Source of the DNA: a bacterium
GTDB taxonomy: Bacteria; Auribacterota; UBA6266
DNA: 45,509 nt
NCBI GenBank assembly: GCA_028717725.1
Contig: JAQUNG010000003.1
Location: 1-45,509 of the forward strand
Direction of reading: 5' to 3'
Shown: one piece after another, positions 17,866 through 39,300 of the stretch
Numbering within the stretch: the first letter of the stretch is position 1
Layout: every line of letters starts with the position of its first letter
Notes under the pieces: generated by a model
Seen by the model: only the letters and a program-made list of their open reading frames with translations
Told to the model about the DNA's origin: nothing
Databases searched by the model: none
Position numbers and translations under genes: made by a program

Positions 17866-17933
17866 CCTGTTTCTCCGCCCGCGCCCACACAAGCACCGCA
17901 CTATTATACAATTTTCGGATTCCGCTTTAAATT

Positions 17934-19616: not shown

Positions 19617-20013
19617 TTTTTATATCCCCTTTTCTTTTGCCCCCGCTCCACTTCAAATCCGAGAGCGCTTTAAAAAGTGTCACACCCGCATTTTCCGTTC
19701 CCGGCATATCAACAACCTCTGCCACAAATTCCCATGAGAAATCCAATCTCCCGGACATGAAATATTCTGAAGGTTTCAAAAGCACAAATTCGGGACTGTT
19801 TTCCGACTCGAGCTGAGAGTAAGCCATTCGGTCATCGGCCATAATACACGCCTTCAGGGTGTCTTCCGAAATTTTTACGGCGTTGAGGCTTGAGACAAAT
19901 CCCTGCAGAATCATTACAAGCCCGACAGAGACAATAGCGACGGCTATTATCACCTCTATAAGAGTAAAACCGCTGACTGTATCCTGAAAAGTTCTCTTCA
20001 AAATATTATTCAC
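19573..20013 (-). CDS. gspI: Minor pseudopilin GspI
   Basis: A 146-residue type IV pilin-like protein. The leader of about 15 residues is cut at SG|FTLIEVIIAVAIVSVGLVM. The small globular domain fits GspI. It lies between gspG and gspJ; GspH, usually found between G and I, is absent. Confidence 0.83.
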   Translation of the reverse strand: MNNILKRTFQDTVSGFTLIEVIIAVAIVSVGLVMILQGFVSSLNAVKISEDTLKACIMADDRMAYSQLESENSPEFVLLKPSEYFMSGRLDFSWEFVAEVVDMPGTENAGVTLFKALSDLKWSGGKRKGDIKIETLFRQKKEIPGL

Positions 20014-20031: not shown

Positions 20032-20484
20032 TTATTCTTCCCAGTTATTCACGTCGTCGCCGCTCTGGACTCCGTCAGGCCCGAAAGAAAAAAGGTCATA
20101 GTCTGTCGCATGGTTTGACGGGCATCTGTATTGATACTCTTTTCCCCACGGATCAAGAAATTTATTTTTCTTTGTATAGGGGCCTTTCCAGTTTTCCAAA
20201 CCCCCGGGCTGCTGAACAAGCGCTTTTAATCCTTCTTCGGTCGTGGGATATCTCCCGTTATCGATTTCGAACATATCCAGCGCGACGGGGATGTTCGCGA
20301 CTACGTCCGTTTTGGCCACAGCGATTTTAGCCTGTTCCGACCGGCCGGCCAGGCGGGGAAGTATCATGGCCGCCAGAGCCCCTATTATTATAACCACCAG
20401 CATCAATTCTATAAGGGTAAACCCCGACAGAAAATTTCTTCCCTCTAATCTTTTTAAACCCGAAATAGTTTTACAGCAACTCAT
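20032..20484 (-). CDS. gspG: Major pseudopilin GspG
   Basis: Main subunit of the T2SS pseudopilus, 150 residues. The processing site SG|FTLIELMLVVIIIGALAAM follows an unusually long 21-residue leader. The globular domain has the GspG hallmarks ALDMFEIDNGRYPTTEEGLKAL, DPWGKEYQYRCP and FSFGPDGVQSGDDVNNW. That last loop is the calcium site known from family structures. The gene lies 15 bases after gspF. Confidence 0.94.
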   Translation of the reverse strand: MSCCKTISGLKRLEGRNFLSGFTLIELMLVVIIIGALAAMILPRLAGRSEQAKIAVAKTDVVANIPVALDMFEIDNGRYPTTEEGLKALVQQPGGLENWKGPYTKKNKFLDPWGKEYQYRCPSNHATDYDLFSFGPDGVQSGDDVNNWEE

Positions 20485-20499
20485 ATTGACTCTCCTTAA

Positions 20500-21738
20500 T
20501 TAACCCGCCAGGTTCATCTGGAATACAGGCAACAACATGGCAAACACTATAAAACCAACCACAAGTCCCATTATTAAAATTATAACCGGCTCAAAGAGAG
20601 AGGTAATAACTTTAGTGATTTTATCGGCTTCCCTATCATAAAAATCGGCCACATCGGACAAAGCCGACTCGAGAGAACCCGTTTTTTCCCCGACGGCTAT
20701 CATATTAACCATAAAAGGGGGAAACAGGCCCGTTTTCTTTAAACTGTCTTTGAATGACGCTCCGTCCACAACGCCTTCCCGGATTCCGGCGATCTCCTTG
20801 CGGAAAACCTCGCTGTTAACGGTCGGCAAAGCTATATCTATCGACTGGGCAAGAGGTATCCCGTTCCCAAGCAGTGTCTGCAGTGTCCTGCAAAACCTTG
20901 AATAAACAGTCATCTTAAAGAATGTTCCCCACACAGGCAGTCTCAGCCTGAACCTGTCAATAGCCAGTTTCTTTTTCCTTATTATTCCCGTTTTGTCCAG
21001 CATAAAAATAATAACGCATAAGGCCGCGACAAACCACAAGCCGAATTTTTTAACCGGCAGGCTTAAGAATATAAGCATCTTTGTCAGGAACGGCAGAGAC
21101 TGCTCCATTTGCTGGAACAGGACAGCCATTTTCGGTATCACAAAACCCAGCAATATAAAAACCGTAATGATTCCGACCGCTACGATAAAAAGCGGATACG
21201 CAAGAGCCGAAACTATTTTTGATTTTATCTGTTCTTCCCTGTCGCGCAATTCGGCAAGCCTTAAAAGCGTTTTATCGAGAACCCCGCCTTTCTCGCCCGC
21301 ATCTATCATATTGACATACAGGGAGCTGAACACATGGGGATACCCGGAAAGCGACCCCGCAAGCGTGGCGCCGTTCTTAATCTTCCCCTGAATCGCCATA
21401 ATTATATTCCTTAAAAACGAATTCTCAGTCTGTTCACATAAAATTTCCAGAGATTCCGCCAACCGCACTTTAGCCTTCAGCAAAGCCGAAAGCTGTTCGG
21501 TAAACACCGTAATATCTTTTGCTTTTACTTTTCTCGAAAGTATTTTTGTTTCCAAAGGGTTTTCTTTTTTCTCCCCTTTTTTACGGTGCCCCGAAGAAAA
21601 ATGTTTCAATTCCATTACATTAACGGGGATCAGCCCATCCTGCCCCAATTTATCAACAACCTGTTCCCTGTTTCCGGCTTCCATGGTCCCTTCAACCACT
21701 TCATGAGGACCTTTCTTCGCTTTATAATAAAATTCCAT
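20500..21738 (-). CDS. gspF: T2SS inner-membrane platform protein GspF
   Basis: A 412-residue polytopic protein with two copies of the T2SS-F domain. The first includes FTEQLSALLKAKVRLAESLE, the second FCRTLQTLLGNGIPLAQSID. Three membrane segments are visible near residues 165-190, 215-240 and 380-405. It forms the membrane platform driven by GspE. ATG 21738 is chosen for the GGGGGA upstream; a GTG at 21762 would overlap the epsilon gene by 4 bases. It is separated from gspE by the ATPase epsilon gene. Confidence 0.93.
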   Translation of the reverse strand: MEFYYKAKKGPHEVVEGTMEAGNREQVVDKLGQDGLIPVNVMELKHFSSGHRKKGEKKENPLETKILSRKVKAKDITVFTEQLSALLKAKVRLAESLEILCEQTENSFLRNIIMAIQGKIKNGATLAGSLSGYPHVFSSLYVNMIDAGEKGGVLDKTLLRLAELRDREEQIKSKIVSALAYPLFIVAVGIITVFILLGFVIPKMAVLFQQMEQSLPFLTKMLIFLSLPVKKFGLWFVAALCVIIFMLDKTGIIRKKKLAIDRFRLRLPVWGTFFKMTVYSRFCRTLQTLLGNGIPLAQSIDIALPTVNSEVFRKEIAGIREGVVDGASFKDSLKKTGLFPPFMVNMIAVGEKTGSLESALSDVADFYDREADKITKVITSLFEPVIILIMGLVVGFIVFAMLLPVFQMNLAG

Positions 21739-21758
21739 CCGGATATTCCCCCGAAAAA

Positions 21759-21998
21759 TCACAACGGTTCAGCGATTATTTTGAGTCCGGCTCCGTCCAT
21801 AGCGGCTATACCGCCCATTATCTTAAAAGATTTACTGCCGTCAATCCTGATTGTTCCCCTGCCCAGGGCGGAAACTATAGGACGGTGAAAATCCATAATC
21901 GATATCTCGCCGCCTTCGGCCGGCAACACGACACAGGCAGCCTCATCCTGATATAACAGCGCCTCCGCCCCAACATCATATATGCTTACCCTAAACAT
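21759..21998 (-). CDS. atpC: F-type ATPase epsilon subunit, beta-sandwich domain only
   Basis: A 79-residue protein matching the N-terminal domain of AtpC: FRVSIYDVGAEALLYQDEA, VVLPAEGGEISIMDFH, PIVSALGRGTIRI and a final GGIAAM...LKIIAE. These align with the usual PGEDGE, GHAP, LKPG and GGFxxV...VTVLAE landmarks. The C-terminal helical hairpin that inhibits ATP hydrolysis in many bacteria is missing. The gene sits between gspE and gspF rather than directly after atpD. It has GGAG upstream and no frameshift, so the short form looks genuine. Without the neighbouring beta subunit gene it would be easy to miss. Confidence 0.8.
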   Translation of the reverse strand: MFRVSIYDVGAEALLYQDEAACVVLPAEGGEISIMDFHRPIVSALGRGTIRIDGSKSFKIMGGIAAMDGAGLKIIAEPL

Positions 21999-22013: not shown

Positions 22014-23747
22014 TTAATCCGCCGTTTGCGTAACTCTCATCACTTCTTCGGGTGTCGTAAGCCCTTCCAAAACTTTTTCCCAGCCGGAAACACGCAGGGT
22101 TTTCATACCCTGTTCGATAGCTTTATCCCTTATCCTGTCAGTGGAAGCTTTTTCGAGTATAAGCTCTTTTACCGCCCTGTTAATCAAAAGAATTTCGTAT
22201 ATAGCGCTTCTTTGTTTGTATCCCGTATGATTGCACGAATCACAACCACTGCCTTTATAAAATCTGACCTGTCCGGGAAACTCGATCAGATTCCCGGATT
22301 TTTGTTTCGCGTTAAAGTTCTCTATATCCCGGCATATCATTTTCCCGACATCATCAGTCACCGATAAATCTTCCTCTTTGCATTCCGGGCAAATGACGCG
22401 CACCAGCCTCTGCGCGATAAAACTTTCAACCGACGAAGTTATAAGAAACGGTTCTATCCCGATGTTTATAAGTCTCGTTATCCCTCCCGCGGCGTCATTG
22501 GTGTGCACCGTCGAAAAAATCAAATGCCCGGTTAAAGCTATCCTTATAGCCAGCTCGGCGGTTTCGTAATCCCTCACTTCTCCGACCATCATTATATCCG
22601 GGTCATGCCTCAGGACGCTTCTGAGCCCCTGCGCAAAAGAAAACCCTATTTCAGGCATTACCTGTATCTGCGTAACTCCCTCTATCTCGTATTCAATCGG
22701 GTCTTCAAGCGTAATTATTTTGTTTGCCGGGCTTTTAATCTTATTCAGGCAGGCATATAAAGTCGTGGTCTTCCCGCTGCCCGTCGGGCCCGTAACAAAT
22801 ATAATACCGTTGGGTTTTTTCACAAGTTCTTCCATTATTTTCAGCTCGCCGGGTTTCAATCCGAGTTTTTCAAGGCTGAAAAGCATTTTGGCGGGGAGCA
22901 CCCTTACAACAAGGCTCTCGCCGTGCCTCGTCGGTATAACGGAAATCCTCAAATCAAACTCATCTTTACCTATTTTTATCGAGGCTCTTCCGTCCTGCGG
23001 CAGTCTCCTTTCCACAATATCGAGTTTAGACATAATTTTTATCCTTGATATTATGGAATGGAAAAGCCTGCTCATCTCCACGGGAACATTGGCATTATAC
23101 AGCACCCCGTCTATCCTGTAACGCAAACCCAGCTTTCCGCGAAAAGGTTCTATATGGATATCGGTGGCCCTTGCTTTATGCGCGTCGAGGATGATCTGGT
23201 TGACCAGTTTGAGAACCGAAGCCTCCGCGGCCATTTTCTCGATATCCTCGACTTCTTCTCTGATTTCTACAACGTCCGGTTCCCGTTCCAAACGCTGTTT
23301 GGCCATAATGCTTTCTACGGTTTCCGCGCCGACACCGTAGTATTTTTTTATTGTCTTGACGGTTTCTCTTTCGGGAGCGAGAACTCCTTTTATTTCAACC
23401 CCGAGGAATAACTGCAGGTCATTCAGGGAATGCAGAGGGTCTGACGTAGCGACTGTCAGAGTGTTTCCTTCAAGCCTGAGGGGCATTATTTTATAATGCC
23501 ACGCGAATTTCGCGGGAACTTTTTTCACGGCCTCAGCGTCGATATCGGCCTTTTTTATGTCAACAATCGGGATCTCAAGCTGTTTTGAAAGCACGGGAAG
23601 AAGCTCTTCCTCTTTCAGATATCCCATTTTTATCAGCACCTTAGCAAGAGGTTCCGAGGTCTTCTGCTGTTCTTTCAGCGCGGAGTTAAGGTCATCCGCG
23701 GAAATGAGATTATCTTTTACGAGTATTTCCCCCAGTTTCATAACCAT
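22014..23747 (-). CDS. gspE: T2SS assembly ATPase GspE
   Basis: A 577-residue secretion ATPase. The N-terminal MshEN-like domain (1-150: LGEILVKDNLISADDLNSAL) is followed by the ATPase core. That core has GPTGSGKTTT (Walker A), ITLEDPIEYE (Asp box), DIMMVGEVRDYETAELA (Walker B) and STVHTNDAAGGITRL (His box). A zinc site with CPEC and CDSC follows. It powers pseudopilus assembly. PilB is similar, but the gene order with gspF, G, I, J, K, L, M supports GspE. It lies 50 bases after atpD and 15 bases before atpC, so it splits the ATPase genes. Confidence 0.93.
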   Translation of the reverse strand: MVMKLGEILVKDNLISADDLNSALKEQQKTSEPLAKVLIKMGYLKEEELLPVLSKQLEIPIVDIKKADIDAEAVKKVPAKFAWHYKIMPLRLEGNTLTVATSDPLHSLNDLQLFLGVEIKGVLAPERETVKTIKKYYGVGAETVESIMAKQRLEREPDVVEIREEVEDIEKMAAEASVLKLVNQIILDAHKARATDIHIEPFRGKLGLRYRIDGVLYNANVPVEMSRLFHSIISRIKIMSKLDIVERRLPQDGRASIKIGKDEFDLRISVIPTRHGESLVVRVLPAKMLFSLEKLGLKPGELKIMEELVKKPNGIIFVTGPTGSGKTTTLYACLNKIKSPANKIITLEDPIEYEIEGVTQIQVMPEIGFSFAQGLRSVLRHDPDIMMVGEVRDYETAELAIRIALTGHLIFSTVHTNDAAGGITRLINIGIEPFLITSSVESFIAQRLVRVICPECKEEDLSVTDDVGKMICRDIENFNAKQKSGNLIEFPGQVRFYKGSGCDSCNHTGYKQRSAIYEILLINRAVKELILEKASTDRIRDKAIEQGMKTLRVSGWEKVLEGLTTPEEVMRVTQTAD

Positions 23748-23797: not shown

Positions 23798-25219
23798 TCA
23801 CGCGATTTCGCCTGTCATATAAAGGTCTTCCGCGGGGATTTTGTCCATTTCACCCGAAATTATCCTTTCACAACCCCGTATGGTTTTTTCCAGAGGAACA
23901 TACTCGCCCTTTTTGCCCGTATAAATCTCCGCCGTAAAAAACGGCTGGGTCAGGAAGTTTCTCAGCCTCTGCGCCCTTTCGAACATAATCCTGTCTTCGC
24001 GCGACAATTCCTCGATTCCGATTATGGACACTATCCTCCTTAATTCCTCAAATTTATTCAGGGTGATTATCACATCCTGCGCCACTTCAAAGTGCCTGTT
24101 CCCTATTATATGCGGGTCCATATATGACGACGACGACAAAAGAGGGTCTATCGCCGGGTAAAGGCCCAGCTGGACATGCTGTCTGGAAAGGATAAGTATC
24201 GAATCAAGGTAACTGAATATGCTGACCACGGCGGGATCGGTCAGGTCATCGCTCGGCACATAGACAGCTTCTATGGCGGTGATGGCGTTTCTGCCCGAAG
24301 ACCTTATTCTTTCCTGAAAATCGCTCATCTCGGATGTCAAAGTCGGCTGGTACCCCGTTTCAGACGGAATCCTCCCGAGCAGTGTCGATATTTCGCTTCC
24401 CGCCTGAGCAAACCTGAAGACACTGTCCACAAAGAAAAGGACGTCGTCTCCTTGTTCATGGAAATGTTCCGCAAGCGTAATCCCTGTATGCACTATCTCG
24501 AACCTGGCTCCGGGAGGTTCGTTCATCTGTCCGAAAGCAAGCACCGCGCGCTCAAGGATATTTTGCCTGTCAAGTTCGTGGTAAAGCTCATTGCCTTCCC
24601 TTATCCTTTCTCCCGCTCCGGTAAATATACAATAACCCTTTTGCTTTCTTGTCACGTTATGCATAAGTTCAAGTATGATAACGCTCTTGCCGAGCGCCGC
24701 CCCGCCCAGAATACCGGTCCTGGTCCCTTTTATCATCGGGAAAAGCAGATCTATGACTTTTATTCCCGTCTCAAGTATTTCAAATTTCATCTGGCTGGCC
24801 CCGGATACACTGGAATCTATTTTTTTCTTTTTATGTATCGGCGCGGATTCTTTTGATACTATGGGGCCTTTCTTATCCACCGGTTCGCCGAAAACATTCA
24901 GGATCCTTGAACACACTTCTTTGCCTACGGGTATCTTTATCCCGCCTCCGGTCGGAACGGCTTCGGCGTTTCTCTGAAGACCCGACAGGGGGGAAAGAGA
25001 TATGCATCTTACCACATCGCCGACGTCGGTAGCTCTCCGGGAAAGATACTCCACGACTTCAAGGACGACTTTCTTTCCGTCATATGTTCTCGCTTCCAGG
25101 ACATCATACATATCGGGCATATGTTCCGGCGATTCGAACTTGACGATTACAACCGGGCCCTGGACCCCGATTACTTTTCCGGGCTTGCCCGCGCTTTTCG
25201 TTTCATCTCTGTCCGGCAC
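23798..25219 (-). CDS. atpD: F-type ATPase beta subunit
   Basis: Catalytic F1 subunit, 473 residues. The Walker A motif is GGAALGKSV (Lys178) instead of the near-universal GGAGVGKTV. Catalytic Glu204 lies in [45 protein letters not shown] is nearly canonical. The DELSEED loop reads EELSRED. All residues needed for catalysis are present, so it should be active though divergent. It starts with GTG at 25219, supported by GGAGGG 7 bases upstream. It is followed by gspE, not by atpC. Confidence 0.95.
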
Positions 25220-25244: not shown

Positions 25245-26111
25245 TTATGCTTCGTAAATTTGGACGTTTTGCTGGGAAACGGCAAGCCGGCTGGAAAATA
25301 TCTCCCTGATGTTTTTATCGCTGTGTTCATGAAGCATCCGGAAATACCTGAATTTAAGCTTCTTGTCCGTTTCTTTAATTTCATTGGAACTCCTTTCCAA
25401 ATGCATCACCCTTGCCGACCATTCGGAAAGCTTGCTCTCCCAAAATATACCGTAGAAAACATGGTTGACCCATACTCTAACAAGATATTCCAACACCTTT
25501 TCATACGCGGGTTCAACTATCAGATATTCGTTTTTTGCCTTTTCGCCCGGCGTTTCGAATATACGCCCGCAGGGCAGCAATTGCCTTTCTTCGACTTCCC
25601 ACACGCCGAACGAAATAAAATGAGGGAAAACAACCCTCGTTTTGCCCGTTTCCCCGCCGGCAAATCTCCCGAAAACATAGTTTCCCACCGAATCCGCCTC
25701 GCCGTGGGCCACTTCATCGCTTATTCCCGGAAAAGCGGTTATGTTTTCTTTTCCGGTCTCTATATATCTTAAACCCTGTTTTCCCACTACAACAAGATTT
25801 CTCCCGGCGGGATATTTTTCCATCACATAATTCACTATAGCCACATTCAGTTTGCCGAGAAACCCCAAATCCGAAGTAATCATGACAACCGTTTCGGGAA
25901 GGGATGACTCTTTCATAAAAATATTTTGCCCGCCGGCAAACGGAAGCAGAGAGAAAATACCGTTAAGGCATTTTTCAAAATCATCCAATCTCTTTCTTTC
26001 GCGCTGAAGCCTGTAAAACTCCGAAGAAGCGACCCCTCTCAATACGTTAATGATACCGCCTATCTCCCTGTTGAATTGAAGTTCCTGCCTTAATTTCGTC
26101 AAATCAAGCAT
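25245..26111 (-). CDS. atpG: F-type ATPase gamma subunit, divergent
   Basis: A 288-residue central-stalk protein. The N-terminal helix (LRQELQFNREIGGIINVLRG then VASSEFYRLQ) and C-terminal helix (FYGIFWESKLSEWSARVMHL, then ERSSNEIKETDKKL) match the two coiled-coil ends of gamma. ITSDLGFLGKLNVAIVN replaces the usual ITSDRGLCGGFN. The middle Rossmann-like domain is barely recognisable. The position between alpha and beta confirms the call. Confidence 0.88.
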   Translation of the reverse strand: MLDLTKLRQELQFNREIGGIINVLRGVASSEFYRLQRERKRLDDFEKCLNGIFSLLPFAGGQNIFMKESSLPETVVMITSDLGFLGKLNVAIVNYVMEKYPAGRNLVVVGKQGLRYIETGKENITAFPGISDEVAHGEADSVGNYVFGRFAGGETGKTRVVFPHFISFGVWEVEERQLLPCGRIFETPGEKAKNEYLIVEPAYEKVLEYLVRVWVNHVFYGIFWESKLSEWSARVMHLERSSNEIKETDKKLKFRYFRMLHEHSDKNIREIFSSRLAVSQQNVQIYEA

Positions 26112-26125
26112 ATATTAAATAAATC

Positions 26126-27586
26126 CTATTTGAAAAACACGGCGAAAGCCTCGTCTAAACCCTGTTTGATGTCTTCGGCCAGTATCAGCTTATCGGAAAG
26201 CCTTTCGACCAAACGGGGATTTTTATCCGAAATAAATTTAAAAATATTCTTTTTGAAATTCAGCCTCTTATACGGGTCTTTGAGTTCGGGTATATTCCTG
26301 CCGTAAGCGTAGAAAAGGATAACTTGTTCTTCTATGGAAACCGGGCTTGATTTATCCTGCACAAAAAAACCGCTTAATATTTCCCCTCTCTTTAGTCTGT
26401 CTTCGACTTCCGGAGACAGCTTCGCGCGCACCCTTGTCAGGCTCACAAGTTCCCTGTAACGCGCGTATTCTCCCTTAAGGCGGGCAACAACCTCTTTTAT
26501 CGCCTCGCACTGGACCTTACTGCCTATCCTCGAAACGGAAAGCCCCAGGTCAACGGCCGGCTTAAACCCCTCATGAAACAACACCGTATTCAGGTAAATC
26601 TGCCCGTCAGTCATCGATATCAGATTTGACGGGATGAAACCCGTGACATCCCCTTCCTGTGTTTCCACTATGGGGAGCATGGTCATCGAACCGCCGCCGT
26701 TTTCGTCGTTCAATTTCGCGCCTCTCTCCACCAACTGCGAATGTATGTAAAATATATCGCCCGGATACGCTTCCCTCCCAGGAGACCTTTCAAGAAGAAG
26801 AGACAGTTGCCGGTAAACCCAGGCATGCCGGGTCAGGTTATCGAACACCACCAGCACATCTTTGCCTTTATACATAAAATATTCGCCCAGAGTGGCGGCA
26901 GTGTAAGGCGCGATATACTGTTCGGCGGGAGAATCAGAAGCAAGGGCCGAGACAACTATACTGTAGTCCATCGCCCCTTCTCTCTGCATCTGCTGAATTA
27001 TTTTCTGGAAGGAAGAGAAACTTCCGCCTATCCAGCAGAATATACATATGACATCTTTTCCTTTCTGGTTGAGAATCGTATCGAGGGCAAGAGTCGTTTT
27101 TCCCGTGACCCTGTCTCCTATTATCAGTTCTCTTTGCCCCTTGCCGAGAGGGATGACCGTGTCTATCATCTTTATTCCGGTCAGGAGAGGCTGTGTTATG
27201 GGGGCCCGGTCCATAACGCCGGGAGCGTCCCTGAATATAGGATAATTGTCTTCGGCCGCGATTTTACCTTTTTCGTCTATAGGCTCTCCGAAAGCGTTTA
27301 CCGTGCGCCCTATCAGGCTCTCGCCCACAGGCACCTCGAAGATACCGGATTCCGCGTAAACAGTATCGCCGACACTCAATGAAGTCTCATCGCCAAGAGC
27401 AAGCGCCACAACGCTTTTTTCCGTAAACCCTATCACCATCCCCATTAAATTCTGGCAGAGTTCGACCAACTGCCCGTTTATACAGGAGGGAAGTCCCGAT
27501 AACCTTACAATACCCTTTTTAATTTCCCTTATTTCTCCCGTATCTTTTATTTCCACAAGAGGAATTTTAATTTCCCTGTTTTCCAT
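26126..27586 (-). CDS. atpA: F-type ATPase alpha subunit lacking the N-terminal helix
   Basis: Non-catalytic F1 subunit, 486 residues. GDRVTGKTTLALD (P-loop Lys163), SPAEQYIAPYTAATLGEYF, the LSVSRIGSKVQ arginine finger and the C-terminal domain are typical. The protein starts MENREIKIPLVEIKDTGEIR and enters the beta-barrel at once. Compared with E. coli alpha it lacks about 15 residues, the helix that docks on the delta N-terminal domain. The upstream frame offers no better start. Delta also lacks the matching domain here (see the b-delta fusion). Confidence 0.95.
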   Translation of the reverse strand: MENREIKIPLVEIKDTGEIREIKKGIVRLSGLPSCINGQLVELCQNLMGMVIGFTEKSVVALALGDETSLSVGDTVYAESGIFEVPVGESLIGRTVNAFGEPIDEKGKIAAEDNYPIFRDAPGVMDRAPITQPLLTGIKMIDTVIPLGKGQRELIIGDRVTGKTTLALDTILNQKGKDVICIFCWIGGSFSSFQKIIQQMQREGAMDYSIVVSALASDSPAEQYIAPYTAATLGEYFMYKGKDVLVVFDNLTRHAWVYRQLSLLLERSPGREAYPGDIFYIHSQLVERGAKLNDENGGGSMTMLPIVETQEGDVTGFIPSNLISMTDGQIYLNTVLFHEGFKPAVDLGLSVSRIGSKVQCEAIKEVVARLKGEYARYRELVSLTRVRAKLSPEVEDRLKRGEILSGFFVQDKSSPVSIEEQVILFYAYGRNIPELKDPYKRLNFKKNIFKFISDKNPRLVERLSDKLILAEDIKQGLDEAFAVFFK

Positions 27587-27609: not shown

Positions 27610-27828
27610 TCACTGCCAGTGGCCGTAAAGCATAAACACCGAAAGGATGCCAAGCACCGCGATAACCTCGGCAAAAACAAAAGCAAGAAGCATAGAAATC
27701 AGGATTTTGGCCGCGGCGGAGGGATTCCTGCCGAGAGCTTCAACGCTTTTATATCCCACAAAAGCGATTACAGCTGAAGGGCCCAACGTGCTTATAAGCA
27801 TAATGAGGATTACCGTTGCATTTTTCAT
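27610..27828 (-). CDS. atpE: F-type ATPase c subunit, atypical first helix
   Basis: A 72-residue hairpin. Helix 1 (about 5-31), polar loop Gly33-Arg34-Asn35-Pro36 (the R-x-P loop that touches gamma and epsilon), helix 2 (about 42-67). The ion-binding carboxylate is Glu54, 18 residues after the loop Pro, the same spacing as Asp61 in E. coli. Helix 1 has only scattered glycines (Gly16, Gly25) in place of the usual GxGxGxG ladder. The Glu is followed by Val, not the Ser/Thr of Na+ rings, which hints at protons. ATG 27828 overlaps the peptidase stop (ATGA) and follows AGG; the frame extends to a GTG at 27861. Confidence 0.85.
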   Translation of the reverse strand: MKNATVILIMLISTLGPSAVIAFVGYKSVEALGRNPSAAAKILISMLLAFVFAEVIAVLGILSVFMLYGHWQ

Positions 27829-28604
27829 TTTGGAACCTGCTTGTTTATGTTGTTTACCCACGCTTCCTGAAAACCTTCAAGACTCCTGAATCCGTATGTT
27901 TTAAAAAACGCTTCCTGCCAATCCGTCCCGTCCCTTATCTTCCTGCAGAACTTTATAAATTCATCCCGGCCGTATTCTTCCAGCAGAAAACCGATCAGGC
28001 TCGCCGCCTCGCTGTAAAAAACCACGGGAATAACATATCTATAATCCCTGATTTCCGAGAGGGACTTCACGGAAATATAGAGGTCTCTTTTTACCAGCTC
28101 TTTCGCGGCATCCAGGTAAAAATTCCTGTCTTTTTCCTGAAGGACCGCCACGCCCTCGTCAATCCACAACGGTATTCTGGCGTTATACCCTATAACCTCC
28201 CTGAAAACAATATGCCCCATCTCATGGGGAAGTATGTTTGTGAAAAACTCTTCCTGCATCACAAACGTGATTATTTCTTTTTCTTTTATATCTACATGGG
28301 CCCTGGACCATTCTTCATAACCGGTGGCATCCAGATAACCCTGAAGATTTTCGAATATGTATATCTTGCAGCGGTTATCAAAAGTCCAGAAAGTGATTCT
28401 TTTCAATCCGAGATATTCGGTTATATCCTTATAGTATCTTTCCGCTTCCCGGGCCGCATTGTTGATATATCCGTATGGAGCCTGCTTGTAATAGACCAGA
28501 AAATGTTTGCTTTTCTTTACTTTCCAGCCGCTGCCGGGTTTAAAACCGCAAAAAACGGCAATTACGGCAAAAAATAATATCAACGATTTAAAAACAGATT
28601 TCAA
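27825..28604 (-). CDS. Membrane-anchored or secreted HExxH metallopeptidase (MA-like), function unknown
   Basis: A 259-residue protein from a TTG at 28604, just past the stop of the b-delta gene; an ATG at 28700 would add 32 residues inside that gene. The N-terminus (KSVFKSLILFFAVIAVFCGF) is a signal peptide or anchor. The mature part has LPHEMGHIVF, the zinc-binding HExxH, followed 19 residues after its second His by Glu in WIDEGVA. This is the gluzincin arrangement of the peptidase MA-like domain. The substrate is unknown. It sits between two ATPase subunit genes, and its stop overlaps the c-subunit start, so it is expressed with the ATPase. It is probably periplasmic. Confidence 0.8.
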   Translation of the reverse strand: MKSVFKSLILFFAVIAVFCGFKPGSGWKVKKSKHFLVYYKQAPYGYINNAAREAERYYKDITEYLGLKRITFWTFDNRCKIYIFENLQGYLDATGYEEWSRAHVDIKEKEIITFVMQEEFFTNILPHEMGHIVFREVIGYNARIPLWIDEGVAVLQEKDRNFYLDAAKELVKRDLYISVKSLSEIRDYRYVIPVVFYSEAASLIGFLLEEYGRDEFIKFCRKIRDGTDWQEAFFKTYGFRSLEGFQEAWVNNINKQVPK

Positions 28605-28621
28605 CCGCTGTTTCTTTCTTT

Positions 28622-29362
28622 TTAAACGGTCCTGGATTTTTCCCTCATCGCCGGCAGAATCTTTTTCAGTTTGTTTTTCAATGAACCGTCTATAATACAT
28701 TCTCCTACTTTTACCACGATTCCGGCGACGATATCGTCATCCCGTTTCTCAATGAATTCCAGACTTTTGCCGTCTTTTCCCGCAAGCGTCTCTTTCAATT
28801 TCTTCATCTGGGAATCCGAAAGCTTAACCGATGTGATGATTTCAACCGCTGATACGGAAGCGGCGCTTCTTTTGTTCTCATCTATTTTTTTTATTTCGTC
28901 TATAACGTCATCCACGAAATGCCGGTGCATCTCCTCAAGGTTCCTGTCGGTAAAAATCTGTTTTATCATATCGACCGCCAGATAAAGGGATTTTGTCTGC
29001 ATTTCGACGACAAGTTCGGCTTCCTTTTTCCTGTTTTCGCGCGAAGCTTCTTCCAGTATCTTTTTTGATTCGTTCTTCGCCTTTTCGATGATCTCTTCTC
29101 TTTCTTTTTCCGCCGCCGCGCGCCCCTTTTTCCTTATCTCATCCGCGTCCCTTTTGCTTTTTTCCATCTCTTCCTGAATCTGTTTTTTCGCACTCTCGAT
29201 TTTTTCTTTCAGCGCTTTTTCCTCCTTTTGCTTTTCCTCGTTGAGTTCCCTGAGTCTTTTTATCGTTTTACGGGTCTGATTGAGAAAAAGCCATCTCAGG
29301 AAAAGTATGATGAGAAGGAAAGTTACCACCTGGATAAGGATCAACTGCCAGAAAAGTGACAT
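28622..29362 (-). CDS. atpF: F-type ATPase b subunit fused to the C-terminal domain of delta
   Basis: A 246-residue protein. An N-terminal membrane helix (about 5-27, LILIQVVTFLLIILFLRWLF) leads into a highly charged coiled coil (about 32-125), as in b. The b-type end (SLYLAVDMIKQIF...VDDVIDEIKK) follows. The last 80 residues match only the C-terminal domain of delta: VEIITSVKLSDSQMKKLKET, DDDIVAGIVVKVGECIIDGS. The six-helix N-terminal domain of delta is absent. ATG 29362 (MSLFWQLIL) is preferred over TTG 29398. First gene of the long operon; no a subunit gene precedes or follows it. Confidence 0.85.
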   Translation of the reverse strand: MSLFWQLILIQVVTFLLIILFLRWLFLNQTRKTIKRLRELNEEKQKEEKALKEKIESAKKQIQEEMEKSKRDADEIRKKGRAAAEKEREEIIEKAKNESKKILEEASRENRKKEAELVVEMQTKSLYLAVDMIKQIFTDRNLEEMHRHFVDDVIDEIKKIDENKRSAASVSAVEIITSVKLSDSQMKKLKETLAGKDGKSLEFIEKRDDDIVAGIVVKVGECIIDGSLKNKLKKILPAMREKSRTV

Positions 29363-29412
29363 TGCCGTCTGCCTTTCTTCTTCGTTTTTAAAATCCAAAG
29401 TTCAATATTGAA

Positions 29413-29512: not shown

Positions 29513-30310
29513 TTATTCTTTTTCCTGTTTTTCGGCCTGTCCGCTCTCTTTCTCCCCGGAAACCGGTTTCGTGATTTCTTTTTCTCCGCCGCGCTCACTC
29601 TCCCCCACCTGCTTATGCCACACGACAAAGAAAACCAGCGACATAAACCCCAAAAATACGATAACGCCGAGGATAAGCCACCAGCTGGCTTTGACGGATA
29701 TTCTTTCCGCGGACACGAACGAGCCGCCTGCGCCGCCGGCCGAAACACTTCCCGCCTTCCCGGCATTTTTCTCCATTTTAGCGAGCATATCGCGCATCTT
29801 TTCCAGTTCTTTCATATTCTCTCTGTAAACGGCGATATGCGTCTGTGGCTGGGCATCCATAGCTTCCTGCTGTTTCAGGAGTATCTGCCGGCTTTTTTCC
29901 TCTATGTCTCTCTGCGTCTCCGCGGCCGAATCGTAAAATTCCGAGTCTCTCAAAACCTTCACATACTCGAGAGCCAGAGTGTTCAGGGCATCTATTGTTT
30001 CCGCGGGTATTACCCATATATCGTCTATGGTTATTTCCCTCGATTCGCTCTCTCCCGGTCCCAGTTCGAACATCTTATAAACATAATAAAGCGATTTCTC
30101 TATATCGTAGTCTATTTTTAGGTCGCCGAGTTCTTTGATATCGCCGGGTTTCGCTTCTTTCGGAAGATATGCCTTGAGAAGGGCGCTCTGGGTCTTTGTT
30201 TTTGATGGGTTTACCACAAGCGTCTTAAGAACTACGTCTTTTGAATCGGCGTATCCGGCAAACAGGAAAAGACATAAAAAGAAAACCGGCAAGCGTCTTA
30301 TAAATCTCAT
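29513..30310 (-). CDS. Signal-peptide, coiled-coil and C-terminal membrane-anchor protein, partner of the giant protein
   Basis: A 265-residue protein of unknown function. It has a cleavable-looking signal peptide (1-22, LPVFFLCLFLFAGYADS). A beta-rich region (25-100) follows, with LVVNPSKTKTQSALLKAYLP and LGPGESESREITIDDIWVIP. Then come helices and a coiled coil (105-182), a Gly/Ser hinge (185-200), one membrane helix (210-231) and a charged tail (232-265). By topology most of the protein is periplasmic, held in the inner membrane by the C-terminal helix. It begins 7 bases after the giant gene ends and shares its transcript. A role as anchor or export partner for the giant is inference only. 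Confidence 0.8.
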   Translation of the reverse strand: MRFIRRLPVFFLCLFLFAGYADSKDVVLKTLVVNPSKTKTQSALLKAYLPKEAKPGDIKELGDLKIDYDIEKSLYYVYKMFELGPGESESREITIDDIWVIPAETIDALNTLALEYVKVLRDSEFYDSAAETQRDIEEKSRQILLKQQEAMDAQPQTHIAVYRENMKELEKMRDMLAKMEKNAGKAGSVSAGGAGGSFVSAERISVKASWWLILGVIVFLGFMSLVFFVVWHKQVGESERGGEKEITKPVSGEKESGQAEKQEKE

Positions 30311-30317
30311 TGAAATT

Positions 30318-33300
30318 TTACTCCCCTTCTTCTCTCGATTCCAGCCATGTCTTTACTATGGGTTCGTCACTGCTTCTTGAAAGTATGTCCTGGCTGAGCT
30401 CTACAAGGGCTTTTATCTCAAGCGTCTTGTTTTTGATATAATCCATATTATCCGCGTGGTCTTCTGAAAGATCGAACATTTTCTCTATTTTCAGTCCCTG
30501 CCCTTCGTTTATCTCCCTCAGCTTGGCCATAGCGATTTCAAGCTGGTCATAGACAGCGCCCGTGGTCTTATCCGCAAGGTCTTTGACCTGCGCGCTCAGG
30601 CTTGTAATCTCATCTATATTGGATATAATCTTTGTTATGACGGAATTAATCTCGTCAACGCTTGTCGCAAGGTTCCCGAATTCATCGGTATCGATATTCG
30701 CAAGTTTCGACTGGACTGTAGTCGCGGTGGATGATATATCCTCCAAATCCGTGGTTATCACTTCGATATGTATCCCGTCAACAGTCCCTTTGGTTTCCTC
30801 TTCGCATACTATCGTATGCTGTCCTTTGCCCCAGGCAAACCTTACGTCATACTCATATATACCCGAACCCGGGACCTTTTCTGTCATAACCTGTTTATTT
30901 ATCCTTATGGTGCCGCGAGAATCATAAACCGTGATTGTGGGAGAAAGACCCGTATCCGTCTTATACTGCACCGTCAGGGTCTTGTTCTGCTGGATATAAT
31001 CCTGCTGTGTCAATATCCTTGAAGCATGCTCCCTCTTCAGAGTGCTCGCAAGGGTTTCACCGGAAACCAGGTCCGCGACACCTATGATATCCTGTGTCTT
31101 TTTCGCTTCGGCGGTCACTGTCTGTTTCACACCGGCGACTTCGGTCCTGATTTCGGTGCTCATAGCCCTGATGCTGTCGGTAACTTCTTTCATTTTCATC
31201 GCGACCGGTATCGTAAATGTGGTTCCCGAATGATAAGTCATCAAATCACCGTAAGCGATACTGCATCTCGCGAAATAACTTTTCCCGCTTTCAAGCAATT
31301 CTGTCATACCCGAAGGCGGCAGGCCCCCGACACCTTCTACAGGATCTTCAAGCGTAAACCAGTAATTACCGAGGTCATCCGCGCTTGTATCTATAATCGC
31401 GCCTATCAGCGTATCTCCGTCATAAATCTTTATCGTAGCGGTTTTCAGCTCCATAGACGGCGTGCTCGTAACAATCTGCCCCCTCTTCTCAAGACGGAGA
31501 GACGCAGCCAGTATGTCATTGTTTTCATCGTAAACAAAATCGGACATAACTTTATAGTCGGCAAGTGTTTCGGCTATCGATGTAATATAAACCGACCATG
31601 TGATTTCGTTGTCATAGATGCCGTCAAGGGCGTCGGCCATTGTGTCGGCGATTTTACCCACGGTCGTCTCGACATAAGCGTCTTTTTCGAACTTGAAGTT
31701 ATATGAACCGTAAGGCAGGCTGAACGAAAACGGGCTGTTGCCAGTCATCGGGTTATCGGCATCGGAAATATTTACGACCTCTCCCGTATTGGCGTTAAAA
31801 ACAGTAACCCTGACCTCGGTAAGAGCGCTTGCCGTAGTCTGGTCAAGGACTTTAAGAGTAACGGCGTATTTCTCGACAACCGTGACAGCGCCGGAAGCTC
31901 CAGTTTCCGCGACACCGGTCGCGGTCGCGTTTACCGTTACCTGCCTCGGATAATCGGCACAGTAAACCGCGAAATTGGTAAATCTCGCGACCCCGGAATT
32001 GGCCGTCGCTACATATGAAGTCCCCGGCGTCCATGAGCCGCCTGTGGGCGTTGCCGTGATATTGATACTGCTCGGCGTGGTATTCCCGTAAGCGTCGGTT
32101 ACGTTTACCGTAAATGTTTTCCACGGCGCATTCGCCACAACTGTGGTTTCGGGCTGTGTCCCCCATAATAATTGTCCGGGAACTCCTCCCGTTACTACAA
32201 TTTCAAGGTCATCGCTGTCGGAAGTCGTTATAGTACTCGAGGCATTTCTCGCCTTAACAGCGACGGCTTCCGCTTTATAAAGTTTCATCGTAATCGCCGA
32301 CGCGCTTTCACCCGAATTGAAACTTACAAGTGTGGTGTCGCCGAAGTCAATCGTCACTCCGGAGTAATTCGTGCACGAGGGTTTTACTCCCGTGGCAGAC
32401 TGATTGGCGCCGCTGAATATTATGCTTTTGACACCTTCGTAACTCGTATCGGTATTGTAATTACCGTCAGTCGCTTTCAGATAAACCTGGCTTTCTTGTC
32501 CCGCCGCGATAAGAGAAGCGCTTCCCGTCACGATAAACTGGGAAGCTATTATATCCACGACGGAAGAACTTGTTACGGAATCCCCTTCCGTAAACAGAGA
32601 CCCCGGTGTCTTTACGCTTATATCGTCATTGGGGTCAACATCGAACATTATCCTTTTCCCGTCGGCATCGGAGGGCAGTGTCCTCTTAAGGTATATACTC
32701 AGGACATAAGTCTTATTCGAGTTGTCGGAAACGGTGTACATAACATTCACACCGTCCCCGAATGTCAGGGCGTTATCGGTGATTGTTCCGGCGACTGTCG
32801 TAGTCCCGTCAAACAGGGAAGCTCCCTCTATATAATCAGACCAGCCTTTTGTCGTGTCGGAGCCGCCGCGCGTCACAGCTATTCTCGTAATATTTATACT
32901 GGCTCCGTCGGAACCTAAATCCGTAACTTTAAAATCGAATACCTGCACTTTAGTCTCGGGCGAAGAAGCCGCTGAAGATATGGTCTCGGGCTCCGCTAAA
33001 GTGCCCGCCGTCAAAGTTCCGTCGGCCGCGTTTATAAATGTTATCTTATTCGAATAAATATCATCCACGCCCGAAGTGGACGCCCTTAGATAAATATCTT
33101 CCGGGTAATTATATTTTACGCCGCTGAACGAGGCCAGACCGTCTTCCGCTATTACCTGGAGCGCCGTCGCGCTAAGCGTTCCGTTTACATCAGGGTCATA
33201 CTCTGTATTGCTTGCCGACGCGCTTAACGTGATAAGAGGTGTTTCTCCCATACAGGGGTTGCCGTACTGGTCGGCAATAGCCACCTTCGGCTGTTGGGCA

Positions 33301-36300
33301 AGAGCTACATTCGTGAGAGAATAAGATGACGGCTGCCGGTAGAAATAAAGACCCGCGACGGAACCCGACCTTACCGTAACTGAATTGGACGCTATATTCC
33401 TTCCGCTCGCGTAATCTGCAAGGTCCCCCGCGTAAGCCGTTATAGTCGTATTCTGGTACCTGTATAAAGTGGTATTAAGCACAGTTATAGAAGCACCGTC
33501 GGCAAATGAGACGGAAGTGGTATACGAATCTGTCGCGCTGCCGTTAGGGGCGTCGGCCGTGCCGCTCAACACATAACCTACGGTCTTTGACCCGCTGTAG
33601 GCGGCGGTTGACCCAGTCCCGTTAACTACGTTTCCGTAAAGGTCCACAGCCTGCAGATGCCCGAGGTCAAACTCCACTCCTACATCCCGGGGAGACGCTA
33701 TGTTGCTCTGGAATTTGAGATGATCGGCGGCCGCGTGAAGGACTGTTATTCCGCTTTGTGTGGAGGTTAACACCGCTTCGACAGTATCAGCTACTGTCAC
33801 CGACTGCTCTCCGGCGGTCTTGAGTATAAGACCACTGAAAGTATGGTCGCCGGCATCAGCCGGTTCAAACTGATAATTCGAGGGAAGCACAGCCTGCGGG
33901 TCGGAAGATGTAAATCTGATAACACCGACATACTCGGAAACAAGGTTCCCGAGATAATCCTTTATCTCAACAATCGCGTCTGTTTCTTCTCCCGCGATTA
34001 TGGGATCCGTTATGCCTTTCAATTCCACAATCGGCGTATAGGCAAACATATCGCTCCCGTAATTCGCCGGAAGCGTAACGTTTCCGGCATTATCCGTAGC
34101 CCTTGCCCTGACGGTGTAGATCCTGCCGGCTGTCAGGTCGGACACCGCAAGAGTATATCTCCACGCCGTTGTCCCGCTTGTGACATTCAGCCATTGTTCG
34201 GTCGTAGCATCCCATGTTGTCCCGTTCCAGTAATGGTCATTCAACCCGTCTTCTCTTTTTACCGATATTTCGACTTTACTTATTCCCCTCGAATCACTCG
34301 CTGTCCCGTTTATAGTCGTGACTTCATTCCACGTTGAAGCGCTGTAATTGGCTTTCGCTATCGTAACGGTTGATGACGGAGGAACCGTATCACAGATTAC
34401 CATCGTGCTTGAAACAGGGTCGGCCGGGTTACCCGCAAGGTCCAAAGCTTCAAATGTGACGGTATAAACAGCTTCATTTACCAACGCGACTTCGCCAAGT
34501 GTTATATCCGTATGGGCGCCTTCAAGCAGGTTGTCGCCCGTTAAATTAGTTATATGAGGAGAATTGATATCGGCTTCGCCGCCCGTTCTCGTCCATGTAA
34601 TAGTAACCGAACTTGCTTCTTCGGATAATGTATAGCTTACGTTCGCGTTTTTAACCGTAGCCGTAGAGGAAGGAGATACATTGCTTATAACAACCGCGGT
34701 TATGTCACAGGTGATATTCGTGTTGATTACCGGCGTCGCGGTATTGCCAACAAAATCGGCCGCTTCAAACCTGACGCTGTAAACCGCGCCTCCGACAAGC
34801 GAAGGATTATCATTCAACGTAATATCGCTATGGACACCCTCGTAAAGTTCTTCACCGACAAGCGCGCACGTATGAGGAGACGCCGGGTCGGCCGTCCCGC
34901 CTGTCCTCGTCCACCTGATAGTCCCCGAAGCGCAGGTCTCGGACAATGTGTAAGTAACTTTAGCGTTATTTATTCTCACGTTTGTCGCGGGAGCCGTATT
35001 TGTTATGGTGGGAGCAATATTTTCTTTCGGAACTCCGCTCGCGGTATATCTTTCGTAAGGTACGGCGGCGTTGCCGACCAAGTCCAGAACGGAATCCGCG
35101 ACCGGATTGACCTCAACATATTTTCCGTTAGGTATATAAGCCCTGTCAATCTCTTCATTAAGGGTAATCACCGCGATCTTTCTCGAGACATCCCAGTTTA
35201 CCGCGGCATTATCAACCGTTATATCCACCCTTCCATCGCCCAGCGTATTATCCGTATAGGCGACATTCAGAGTCACACAGCCGCCCGTTATCGAAGCGGT
35301 GTTCATCGGCTCATCAAATGTCAGAGTAATGGTATCTCCGCCGGAATGGACAGATTGCGCCGTAACTGAAAACAGAGGAGGTATGGTTTCCGCCGCAACG
35401 GGAGAAGATGTATATTTCGCCTGGATTCCGGAATTTCCTATAAGGTCTCTTATGTTGCTGTTCGGTGTTACCCTGACATATTTGCCGTCGGGAATATAAG
35501 CTCCGTCAACACCTTCGTTAAGCGTGACCGTCACTATCTTGCCGGTTGAATCAAGCGCTATCTGCGCGTTTGCCGTGACAAACGTCGTCTCATCGCCCGG
35601 AACACTATTATCGTCATACTGTATAAGCCAGTTGGATATATTTTTCGCGGGATCAGGCCTCAACACTTCATTGGACGTGATTGTTATAATATCGCCGGCC
35701 GCATGTCTTGATACGGCGCTGACAGTGATAGCGGGCGCCGTTGTTTCTCTCTCGACAGGGCCCGAGGTGTAAATTTCCGCGGCGCCGACAGTATTGCCCA
35801 CAAGGTCTTTTACCGCGCCCGCGGCAGGTGTCACACCTATATATTTATAACTCGGGATAAACGCCCCGTCGGTTGCTTCGTCCAGCGTTATCGTCGCGAC
35901 TTTTCTCGCCGTATCCCATTCTACCGTGGCATTATTAAGGACAATGTCACCCTCGTTTATATTTCCGGCGTTATCCGAATAATCTATCTCTATGTTGGAA
36001 GCCACATTCGCGTCGTTCAAGCTCGAGATATCCATCGGCTCGCTAAATGTCACGACTATCGTATCTCCGGCGGCGTGGACCGAGGTTCCGACAACGTTTA
36101 TAATTGACGGCGACACCGCCTCTTTTGAAACCGCGGCGGCGGTATAAACAGGTGTATTTGCCGCGCTGTTACCCGCAAGGTCTTTAACACTGTCGGCGGC
36201 CGGGGTTACTCTTACATATTTGCCGTCGGGGATATACGCGCCGTCAACACTTTCATCGAGCGTGATTGTCGCTATTGTATTCCCTGTCCAGATAACAACC

Positions 36301-39300
36301 GCGTTCGCGGCCGTTATCTCTACCGGATTTAAGCCCAGAGCGTTATCACAGTATTCTATTACAATGGTGCCGCATCCGTCGTCAATAGTCGAAGTATCCA
36401 TAGCCTCGTTAAATGTCAACTCTATGGTATCTCCCGCGTTATTGAGAGACGTTGCCGCGACACTGCTCAGTTCCGGAGCCGAAGTCTTTATAGTAACGGT
36501 AAGCGCCTCTGACGGCGCCGACACGTTGCCGAATAAATCGATTGTTCTCGCGCTTATATGATGTTCTCCGTCCGCGAGGTCAATATCTATGCTGTAGTTC
36601 CCTCCCGTAGCAATTCCCGGGCTTCCCACGGGCGAGACTCCGTCATAAAGCCGGACAACCATATCCGCTTCCGCGGTTCCGGTAAAAGTCAGGTTTTCGG
36701 TAACATTTGTATAATTATCCGAATCCGATACCCCAAGGTCGTCTTCAGCCGCCAGATCCGGAGTCGAAGGCACGGCGGGAGCAAGGTTATCGACGCGGAA
36801 CGCAGCCGACACCGTATAATCCTTTGAATATAAATAATATTTTACATCGTTGGGGAACACGCCCTGCGTGTTCCAGTCTTTGATTTTAAACCTTATCCTG
36901 ACATCTGACTGGTCAATATTATTGAGTCCGCTCAAATCGGCATGTTTTGTATTCCATGTGAAACTGTATTCAGGCGCATTACTGAACAGTGTAGCGCCTT
37001 CATAAAACGGACCGCTGTAATCCTGGTTATCCGCCTGCCAGTAACCTGTCAGGCACGCCGACTGGTCCCCGTTATCGGGAGTGTTCCACGTCAACCCTCC
37101 GTCAACGGAATATTCAAAACCGGATAAAGTGTGGTTCTCGTTATCGAGCCCTGTCTTAGCCCAGATATCATTACCGTTATAATAAAGCCCCTGTTTTTTG
37201 CCGGAAGCTCCTTCAGGCGTTTCCCATCCGTTTCCTCCGTCGTAAGTCTGCGTTTCGCCCCTGTCATAGAGCCTGTTAGCGCTTATGCTTTCCGTCCAGA
37301 TATCCTCGCCCGTATCATATTTCCCGTTCCCGTTGACATCGTAGTAGCATATATTAGCGTAACTGCCCAGAGTTTTATCCGCAGTGCCCCAACCGTCGCC
37401 ACCGTCATATACCTGTGTGTCGCCTGTCCTGTATTTATAATAATCCGTGTTATTAATCTGGTCACCCGCGTCTTTTATTCTGAAATTCACGTTTACAACG
37501 CCCGAACCGTCTGTCGCCTGTGTTATCTGCTCAGCGGGTATCTCGTTATCATTTGAATACCCTCCTATCGGTGCACAGACAATCGTACCCGATTCGCTTT
37601 GCAGATAAGCACTGGAAACACCCGAGCCGTTAAGCCCGCCGGCAACCCTGATATATGAAAGAGAATTGGAATAACTTGAAGCGTTAATCGAAATCCTTCC
37701 TCCTCCGGCGCCGCCCGCATATTGCCCACCGGCGCCGCCGTCAGCTTCGAGATACCCCGAACCTGCAAGCGTATCGGCGTCAATATATATACTCCCTCCG
37801 GACGCTCCGGGATAATCACTTCCATAATTCCCTCTTCCGGTCGCATTGATATAACCATCTATTTCAACAGTCCCCTCCGCGGCTATTTTTATAGCCCCGC
37901 CGCCATAAGCAGCACTGCTATAACCACTGCCCGAACCTAAAGACATCGGCTCTGCCAGAGAACCGTAATATATTTTCCCCGGAAGAGTAGTTCTGTTATA
38001 ACCTTCTCCTCCCCATCCGCCATGGCTCGAGCCGCCGCCTCTATATCCTTGTCCTTTGCCGGGTCCCTGGCTGCCGGGAAAACCATAGTTATATCCGACA
38101 TAAATCCTTGAAGTCGTGTCAACGGTCACATTCCCCGCGTTTATCGTGCCGCCAAGCCCATCAGTGACATCTGTCTTGCCGTAAAAATACATATTGCTTG
38201 AGGTTTCAATGTTCAGGTTGCCGCCTAATGTTAATGTCGCGCCAAACCCGCTGTCTGGATAAAAATATATATTGCTCGCGTTTGCAAGATTTAAATCACC
38301 CGGTAATGTGAACAAACTTCGCTGGTCTATATTAAAATTATCAAGCGTCAGGTCTTCTATACCCGATGGAAATGTAAGCGCCTTCAAAATTTTTATAGTA
38401 CCGTCCGTCAGCGTGTAGTCCGACCCTGACTGGTCGTTCAGCGTCTCTTCTATCGTCAGGCTTCCCGTCGAATAAAGATACGCGAGATTCCGGACTGCTA
38501 GATTATCTATTATGTAATCCGCCTCCAGGGGCGTGGGTGTTTCATAATAATTGTTGTTATCTATAATCAAATCGAAGTTGGATTGGGCGGCTTGTTTCTT
38601 ATAGATTGTCCCCGCTCCTCCGGTGTAAGTGGCGGAATAAACACTGCTGTTTTTACCTCCGTAAGCGGTAATATCGCCGCTGAACGAATCCGTCGTATAA
38701 TATACCGCTACCCTGCCTCCGCTGCCGCTCCCCGAATAATAACCGCCGTAACCGCCGTTTGCCCTTATTGTGCCGGAACCTGCCAGTGTGTCTGTTATTA
38801 TCCAGATACTTCCGCCGGCGCCGCCGCTGACATCCTGCTGGCTGGTAACATTTCCGGCGCAGGCGCTTATATATCCGTTGACGGTAAGAGTACCCGCAAC
38901 ATTGAATTTAATCGCCCCGCCGCCCTCATTCGTATAGCCGGTGCCATAATAAGAACTGCCGCCGGTTCCGAGAGCCGTCGGCTCAGCCAATGAACCGTAT
39001 GTGTTCTGGTTCCATGAACTGTAATTATAACTGTATCCTCCGTAACCTCCGTGGGCGGTGCCGTATTCCCTGGTATTATTTCTGGCGCTGGGCCCCTGTC
39101 CCGGGGGAAAACCCAGCCTGTCAGCGTGGATTGAACAACCCGCGTCTATCGTAATATTATCGGCGTTTATTGTCTGTCCTGTCCCGTAAGAAGAACCTGT
39201 ATCACCTATGAAACTGTATGTGCTGCCGTTTGTGAGATTGAGAGTGGAAAGCGTTAAATCACATTTCTGTTTTAAATTAAAGTTGCTGAGCGTCAGGATG

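Follow-up and report, generated by a model that had tools for sequence, protein, structure and literature searches.

Background

A 'symbiotic', non-respiratory F-type ATPase encoded beside type-4a pilus clusters has been described in Omnitrophota, which also carry giant open reading frames (Seymour et al. 2023, PMC10066038); the main text of that study mentions neither a peptidase nor a diguanylate cyclase beside the ATPase and does not state that subunit a is missing. In Mycoplasma, the Type 3 cluster consists of seven genes, with F-type homologues limited to alpha, beta, gamma and epsilon and with one gene for a 12-TM protein, X0 (PMC3369863); the MIB-MIP surface protease system depends on this F1-like X0 ATPase and is co-purified with it (PMC12994834). 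The Type 2 G1-ATPase of Mycoplasma mobile (MMOB1660/1670), a gliding motor, derives from F1 and is coupled to large proteins of the cell surface.

The locus considered here lies within a stretch of 45,509 nucleotides (the window; contig JAQUNG010000003.1) from a bacterium of the phylum UBP3. Its block of genes appears, on sequence grounds, to belong to the Omnitrophota system of PMC10066038, which likewise combines F-type alpha and beta genes beside pilus-type genes with giant open reading frames in the same organisms, although the window comes from another phylum and its pseudopilins GspG and GspK are of the type II secretion system (T2SS) kind. Homologues of GspE, F, G, J, K and PilM/N/O of the T2SS and type IV pilus stand beside the peptidase's block, and the adjacent pilus/T2SS operon is present both in the window and in a genome of the same genus, G001 (UBP3 bacterium UBA6266). 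The association of ATPase and pilus in Omnitrophota was already known; the parts list and the mode of action were not.

By analogy, the nearest functional parallel would be the Mycoplasma Type 3 F1-like ATPase with MIB-MIP (PMC3369863, PMC12994834), where a protease on the cell surface and the protein that partners it depend on an atypical F1-like ATPase. The Mycoplasma cluster lacks a counterpart of b and includes the 12-TM X0 protein, and the surface protease there is unrelated, whereas the window has c and a fused b-delta, a zinc peptidase of the gluzincin clan and a T2SS. Like the M. mobile gliding motor, the window ATPase adjoins a large surface protein, but the window alpha and beta score 398 against a cut-off of 600 and 404 against 850 with the corresponding models NF045863 and NF045858; these two, together with NF045936 and NF045934, all remain well below cut-off. 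Membership in Mycoplasma Type 2 or Type 3 was accordingly rejected, on gene content (c and b-delta are present) and on model scores.

The peptidase gene and its product

All genes described below lie on the minus strand. The peptidase gene (27825..28604, TTG start) stands between the gene for the fused b-delta subunit (28622..29398; PF00430, PF00213) and that for c (27610..27828; PF00137, 5.6e-7), inside an open frame that extends over 28700..27825. In G001 a TTG is aligned with the window TTG at 28604 and there is no usable peptidase start upstream of it, so that the TTG at 28604 is most likely the start. The sequence-only reading had described an exported, HExxH-containing, gluzincin-type gene between b-delta and c whose stop codon overlaps the c start; the frame is intact, and the ATGA overlap is exact (CCAAAATGAAAAAT; c ATG at 27828-27826, peptidase TGA at 27827-27825). 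That reading further held that the overlap couples translation of the peptidase to that of Fo's most abundant subunit, which is not borne out, as the G001 gene ends in TAA-AAA-ATG, leaving a 3-nt gap and no overlap, and in Omnitrophota other genes usually intervene. Between the window and G001 the peptidase evolves with a dN/dS of 0.13. This value, together with the frame, motif, export signal and position, indicates a real gene under purifying selection.

The protein matches Peptidase_MA_2 (PF13485) with an E-value of 1.7e-16 and 61 bits, against a curated cut-off of 32.4; none of the NCBIfam families searched with it matched. Its N-terminus is a predicted helix of the signal-peptide type, and most of its relatives have an evident signal peptide. 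Loss of the zinc ligands had been named as a point to check: the HExxH residues H127, E128 and H131 and the downstream E150 are invariant among 88 homologues, as is Y197, which could be the transition-state tyrosine of the gluzincin fold. AlphaFold2 gives a confident single-domain model (mean pLDDT 92.9). The best Foldseek matches in the PDB are the peptidase domains of the clostridial collagenases G, H and T, with E-values from 4.7e-6, followed by Vibrio collagenases, M1 aminopeptidases and the M30 lugdulysin; sequence profiles of the peptidase also touch M1 enzymes. With the M9 collagenases, M1 and M30 the window peptidase has in common the HExxH...E motif with the tyrosine and the overall fold, although identity is only 11-16% and it is a single small domain. 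The model and the conserved residues identify it as a gluzincin with an intact active site, for which proteolysis is predicted.

The operon in the window

Downstream of c follow the genes for alpha (26126..27586; Arg finger SVSRIG; Pfam and NCBIfam matches), gamma (25245..26111; PF00231, 2.5e-30) and beta (23798..25219; catalytic GERxREG present; Pfam, with TIGR01039 above its cut-off). The c subunit keeps its ion-binding glutamate (FAEVIAV), and in b-delta the delta part is matched only in its C-terminal portion (OSCP profile positions 89-168). Epsilon (21759..21998; PF02823, 4.2e-11), located between gspE and gspF, is a protein of 79 aa with the beta-sandwich domain only. Thus alpha, beta, gamma, epsilon, c, b and delta are all found, with b and delta fused and epsilon short; lacking subunit a, the operon falls short of a complete ATP synthase. 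The short epsilon was considered as a hallmark of this ATPase and dropped, since canonical Omnitrophota epsilons are equally short; those read (L131-L141) are about 77-93 aa long, that is, without the C-terminal helices.

The T2SS genes begin behind beta with a GspE/PilB ATPase (22014..23747; NF053729, 59.9 bits, cut-off 38) that has an N-terminal MshEN-type c-di-GMP-binding domain, and continue with GspF (20500..21762; TIGR02120, 1.4e-109), the major pseudopilin GspG (20032..20484; PF08334, 3.3e-32), the minor pseudopilins resembling GspI (19573..20013; N_methyl motif) and GspJ (18945..19616; PF07963, with PF11612 below its cut-off), the minor pseudopilin GspK (17934..18944; PF21687, 5.1e-18), a GspL-like PilM-PilN fusion (16396..17901; PF11104, PF05137) and a GspM-like PilO homologue (15857..16399; PF04350). 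Homologues of the T2SS proteins GspE, F, G and K are all present, GspE and GspF under equivalog cut-offs.

On the other side of b-delta lies a gene for a surface-protein anchor, which we call TMsig (29513..30310), with a signal peptide, a beta domain, long helices, one TM segment and a short tail. Its model (pLDDT 85.6) shows the beta domain, long helices and single TM and has no PDB match at E <= 1e-3. Directly upstream of it, a giant surface protein of 4680 aa with Ig-like domains is encoded (30318..44360; PF19077, PF13205). Elsewhere TMsig occurs alone or, in many genomes, as the C-terminal domain of giant proteins of more than 2000-3000 aa; this fusion, and the adjacency of TMsig to the 4680-aa protein here, hint that giant protein and anchor may work together. 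TMsig can be described as a conserved surface anchor domain of about 219 residues, found beside the block ATPase and outside any Pfam or NCBIfam family.

A conserved block in Omnitrophota

When six peptidases were used to scan GTDB contigs, nearly all matches came from Omnitrophota. Independently of the peptidase, the window gamma was searched against 285 Omnitrophota genomes, and the scores separate into a high group of about 105 matches above 120 bits, a dividing line drawn by eye, and a low, canonical-like group. Eighty loci centred on gammas of the high group, from 72 Omnitrophota genomes, were annotated with profiles built in this analysis. Their usual gene order is TMsig - [peptidase] - [response regulator-GGDEF] - epsilon - c - b-delta - alpha - gamma - beta - gspE - gspF - [peptidase] - gspG - J - K - pilM, with gspE downstream of beta in 78 of the 80 loci. 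The window differs slightly from this order, having b-delta upstream of the peptidase and epsilon behind gspE; the latter arrangement is common to the window and its nearest relatives (L144-L151). In the congener G002 the contig begins inside alpha, which makes this genome uninformative. In one locus (L215), a 518-aa membrane-like protein and a GGDEF fragment stand between beta and gspE, about 2281-3837 downstream of the gamma start.

The peptidase occupies one of two places in the block, either between TMsig and the response regulator-GGDEF, epsilon or c gene (first position), or between gspF and gspG (second position). Among the 48 loci that show both positions, it is found at the first in 17, at the second in 19, at neither in 12 and at both in none. 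Since a quarter of the complete clusters are without it, the peptidase is not indispensable in the block. Its position between b-delta and c, which the sequence-only reading proposed to follow through related genomes, is kept in G001, and a related arrangement is found in most Omnitrophota clusters. A chance insertion, the outcome that would have refuted that reading, is rejected by this conservation in G001 and in 36 of the 48 Omnitrophota clusters. One assembly (JADHWH01) has two different blocks (L092 and L120), with the peptidase at the first position in one and at the second in the other.

In the Omnitrophota blocks a diguanylate cyclase and epsilon usually stand between the peptidase and c. 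The extra gene there had been considered as a candidate for subunit a and was discarded; it encodes the response-regulator GGDEF protein, accompanied by the short epsilon. The occurrence of such a response regulator-GGDEF diguanylate cyclase inside an ATPase block, upstream of a c-di-GMP-binding GspE (L048:10756-11652 and other Omnitrophota), suggests second-messenger control of the block machine. No diguanylate cyclase is encoded in the window operon, whose GspE has a c-di-GMP domain that fits the cyclase found in many Omnitrophota blocks.

Absence of subunit a and loss of the c glutamate

Subunit a (PF00119) was found in control genomes and in none of the genome of the window (96% complete), G001 and G002. 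Another contig of the window's genome (C5) carries a V-type ATPase operon with consecutive E, A, B, D, I and c-type genes, and this V-type ATPase is probably the energy-coupling enzyme of the organism. As the genome has this enzyme and no detectable a, the F-type block is not the cell's ATP synthase.

The same pattern extends over the block-bearing Omnitrophota. Of their 72 genomes, 34 are without PF00119, one of them with a contig of 1.97 Mb, and 38 have exactly one. Eleven of the PF00119 regions were read: ten belong to separate, full canonical operons in the order a-c-b-delta-alpha-gamma-beta-epsilon, and the eleventh is truncated where its contig ends. The peptidase is not found in the separate canonical operons that were read. 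The V-type I subunit is present in 23 of the 34 genomes without a, as against 2 of the 7 tested genomes with a. A very divergent a subunit could escape the PF00119 profile.

Among 70 block c subunits, 21 have another residue, mostly glutamine, in place of the ion-binding glutamate, which all 11 canonical c subunits examined retain. The substitutes (Gln, Ala, Val, Thr, Phe and Gly in L144-L223) form a natural series of c rings without a carboxylate. The catalytic GERxREG of beta is kept in 81 of 81 cases and the alpha Arg finger in 76 of 77. We infer from these residues that the block ATPase would hydrolyse ATP and turn its ring, and, because subunit a is missing, would do so without moving ions by the classical route; for the window itself, where c retains the glutamate, the latter reading is carried over from the family. 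The missing subunit a and the loss of the c carboxylate in nearly a third of cases argue that a rotary ATPase became an ATP-driven mechanical motor in which the c ring was kept. The missing a, the glutamate loss and the linkage of this ATPase to gspE-F-G-K, the anchor, often a diguanylate cyclase, and the peptidase are findings of the present analysis.

Phylogeny and probable transfer of the block

In the peptidase tree, the window and G001 sequences fall inside the clade of Omnitrophota copies at the first position (99* for the clade as a whole; starred sets of 6 and 11 rows), while the peptidases of G003, from the window's family, and of the UBP3 family f5 fall on the second-position side. 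In the alpha tree the window groups with eight Omnitrophota cluster alphas in a starred set (100*), and ten canonical alphas form a separate starred clade. A block-type gamma is not found in G003, and there is no close gamma in the rest of the window's phylum. From the two trees and this distribution of gamma, the block was likely transferred from Omnitrophota into the window's UBP3 genus. An AU test does not reject a single clade for all machine-linked copies (p 0.73), and we therefore do not claim that the block recruited two peptidase lineages independently.

In f5 genomes the order is gspF-peptidase-gspG, and in G003 the peptidase directly follows the secretin gene, in both cases with no ATPase alongside; going by this gene order, the tie of the peptidase to the T2SS does not depend on the ATPase. 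G003 is the one genome in which a secretin gene was seen. We know of no zinc peptidase of this family as a T2SS component, and a search of the open-access literature for the peptidase in a T2SS or dcw context found nothing relevant.

Possible function

What has been observed directly is the gene with its motif and fold, the conservation of the block, the lack of subunit a and the recurrence of the peptidase at one of two positions. On this basis, we consider it rather probable that the exported zinc endopeptidase is a dedicated part of a rotary, ATP-driven surface machine linked to the T2SS; most likely this machine, rather than the cell's ATP synthase, is what it serves. The exported gluzincin (Peptidase MA) would thus act for a cell-envelope apparatus encoded by one conserved block, which would comprise the giant surface protein with its TMsig anchor, the a-less rotary F-type ATPase, a T2SS/type IV pilus-like motor (GspE-F-G-I-J-K, PilM/N/O) and, often, a response-regulator diguanylate cyclase. 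Because no ions would move by the known mechanism without a, ATP hydrolysis would turn the c ring for mechanical work on the secretion or surface apparatus. The peptidase would act outside the inner membrane; the likeliest of its possible substrates, to be trimmed or set free, would be the surface protein or a secreted client, although we give this choice of substrate a fairly low probability.

Members of a large, uncultured phylum may use such a machine for attachment or predation. A bolder version, which we put forward tentatively, is that a non-pumping F-type motor sits on a T2SS/pilus base with the giant protein, while the dedicated peptidase cuts the surface protein or a prey or host target, which would make the whole an equivalent, in Gram-negative bacteria, of the gliding and MIB-MIP machines of Mycoplasma, in the latter of which an F1-like ATPase acts with a surface protease. 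The recurring peptidase, with its paralogue in the division cluster, provides a concrete handle on the machine, since it is a soluble domain whose active site can be predicted.

The sequence-only reading had envisaged that the peptidase matures an Fo component or an exported T2SS client. The T2SS link is real, but a role in Fo maturation or assembly, translationally coupled to c, is very improbable. It would account for the ATGA overlap with the c gene directly downstream in the window; this overlap is not conserved, c is usually not the next gene, the canonical Fo operons read in Omnitrophota and 12 of the 48 clusters do without the peptidase, and copies with T2SS genes occur where no ATPase stands beside them. 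That the peptidase is a mere passenger, functionally unconnected to the block and present there through descent and horizontal transfer, would fit these 12 clusters and the apparent movement of the whole block into the window's genus. We regard it as improbable, given that two clades each hold a fixed but different place in the block over great divergence and never occupy both, that the catalytic residues are invariant and dN/dS is low, and that some genomes maintain a dedicated block copy beside another in the dcw cluster.

These dcw copies, a third set placed between murG and murC in Omnitrophota, bear on one further alternative, namely that the peptidase remodels the envelope, acting on its peptidoglycan or its proteins, and thereby permits the construction or use of a machine that spans it; division or growth would be the task of the dcw copy, the secretion machine that of the cluster copy. 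Among 50 non-cluster homologues, about 42 directly follow a MurG-like gene and 46 directly precede a Mur ligase; in one such locus (L068) Pfam confirms MurD, FtsW, MurG, MurC, MurB and FtsA around the peptidase. The dcw copies carry signal peptides, and in seven genomes a dcw and a block copy occur together. Against this stand the fold, which is that of gluzincins cutting proteins and peptides, and the lack of a second copy in the window's genome. To our knowledge, gluzincins do not cut peptidoglycan. We consider this explanation unlikely, if less so than the two preceding ones, and prefer the peptidase as a dedicated part of the surface machine; the large dcw clade of the family makes a general envelope function possible.

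Such a paralogue with a signal peptide is placed between murG and murC in the locus mentioned above (L068:10001-10774) and in about 40 further loci; in L068 its gene overlaps each of its neighbours by 4 nt.
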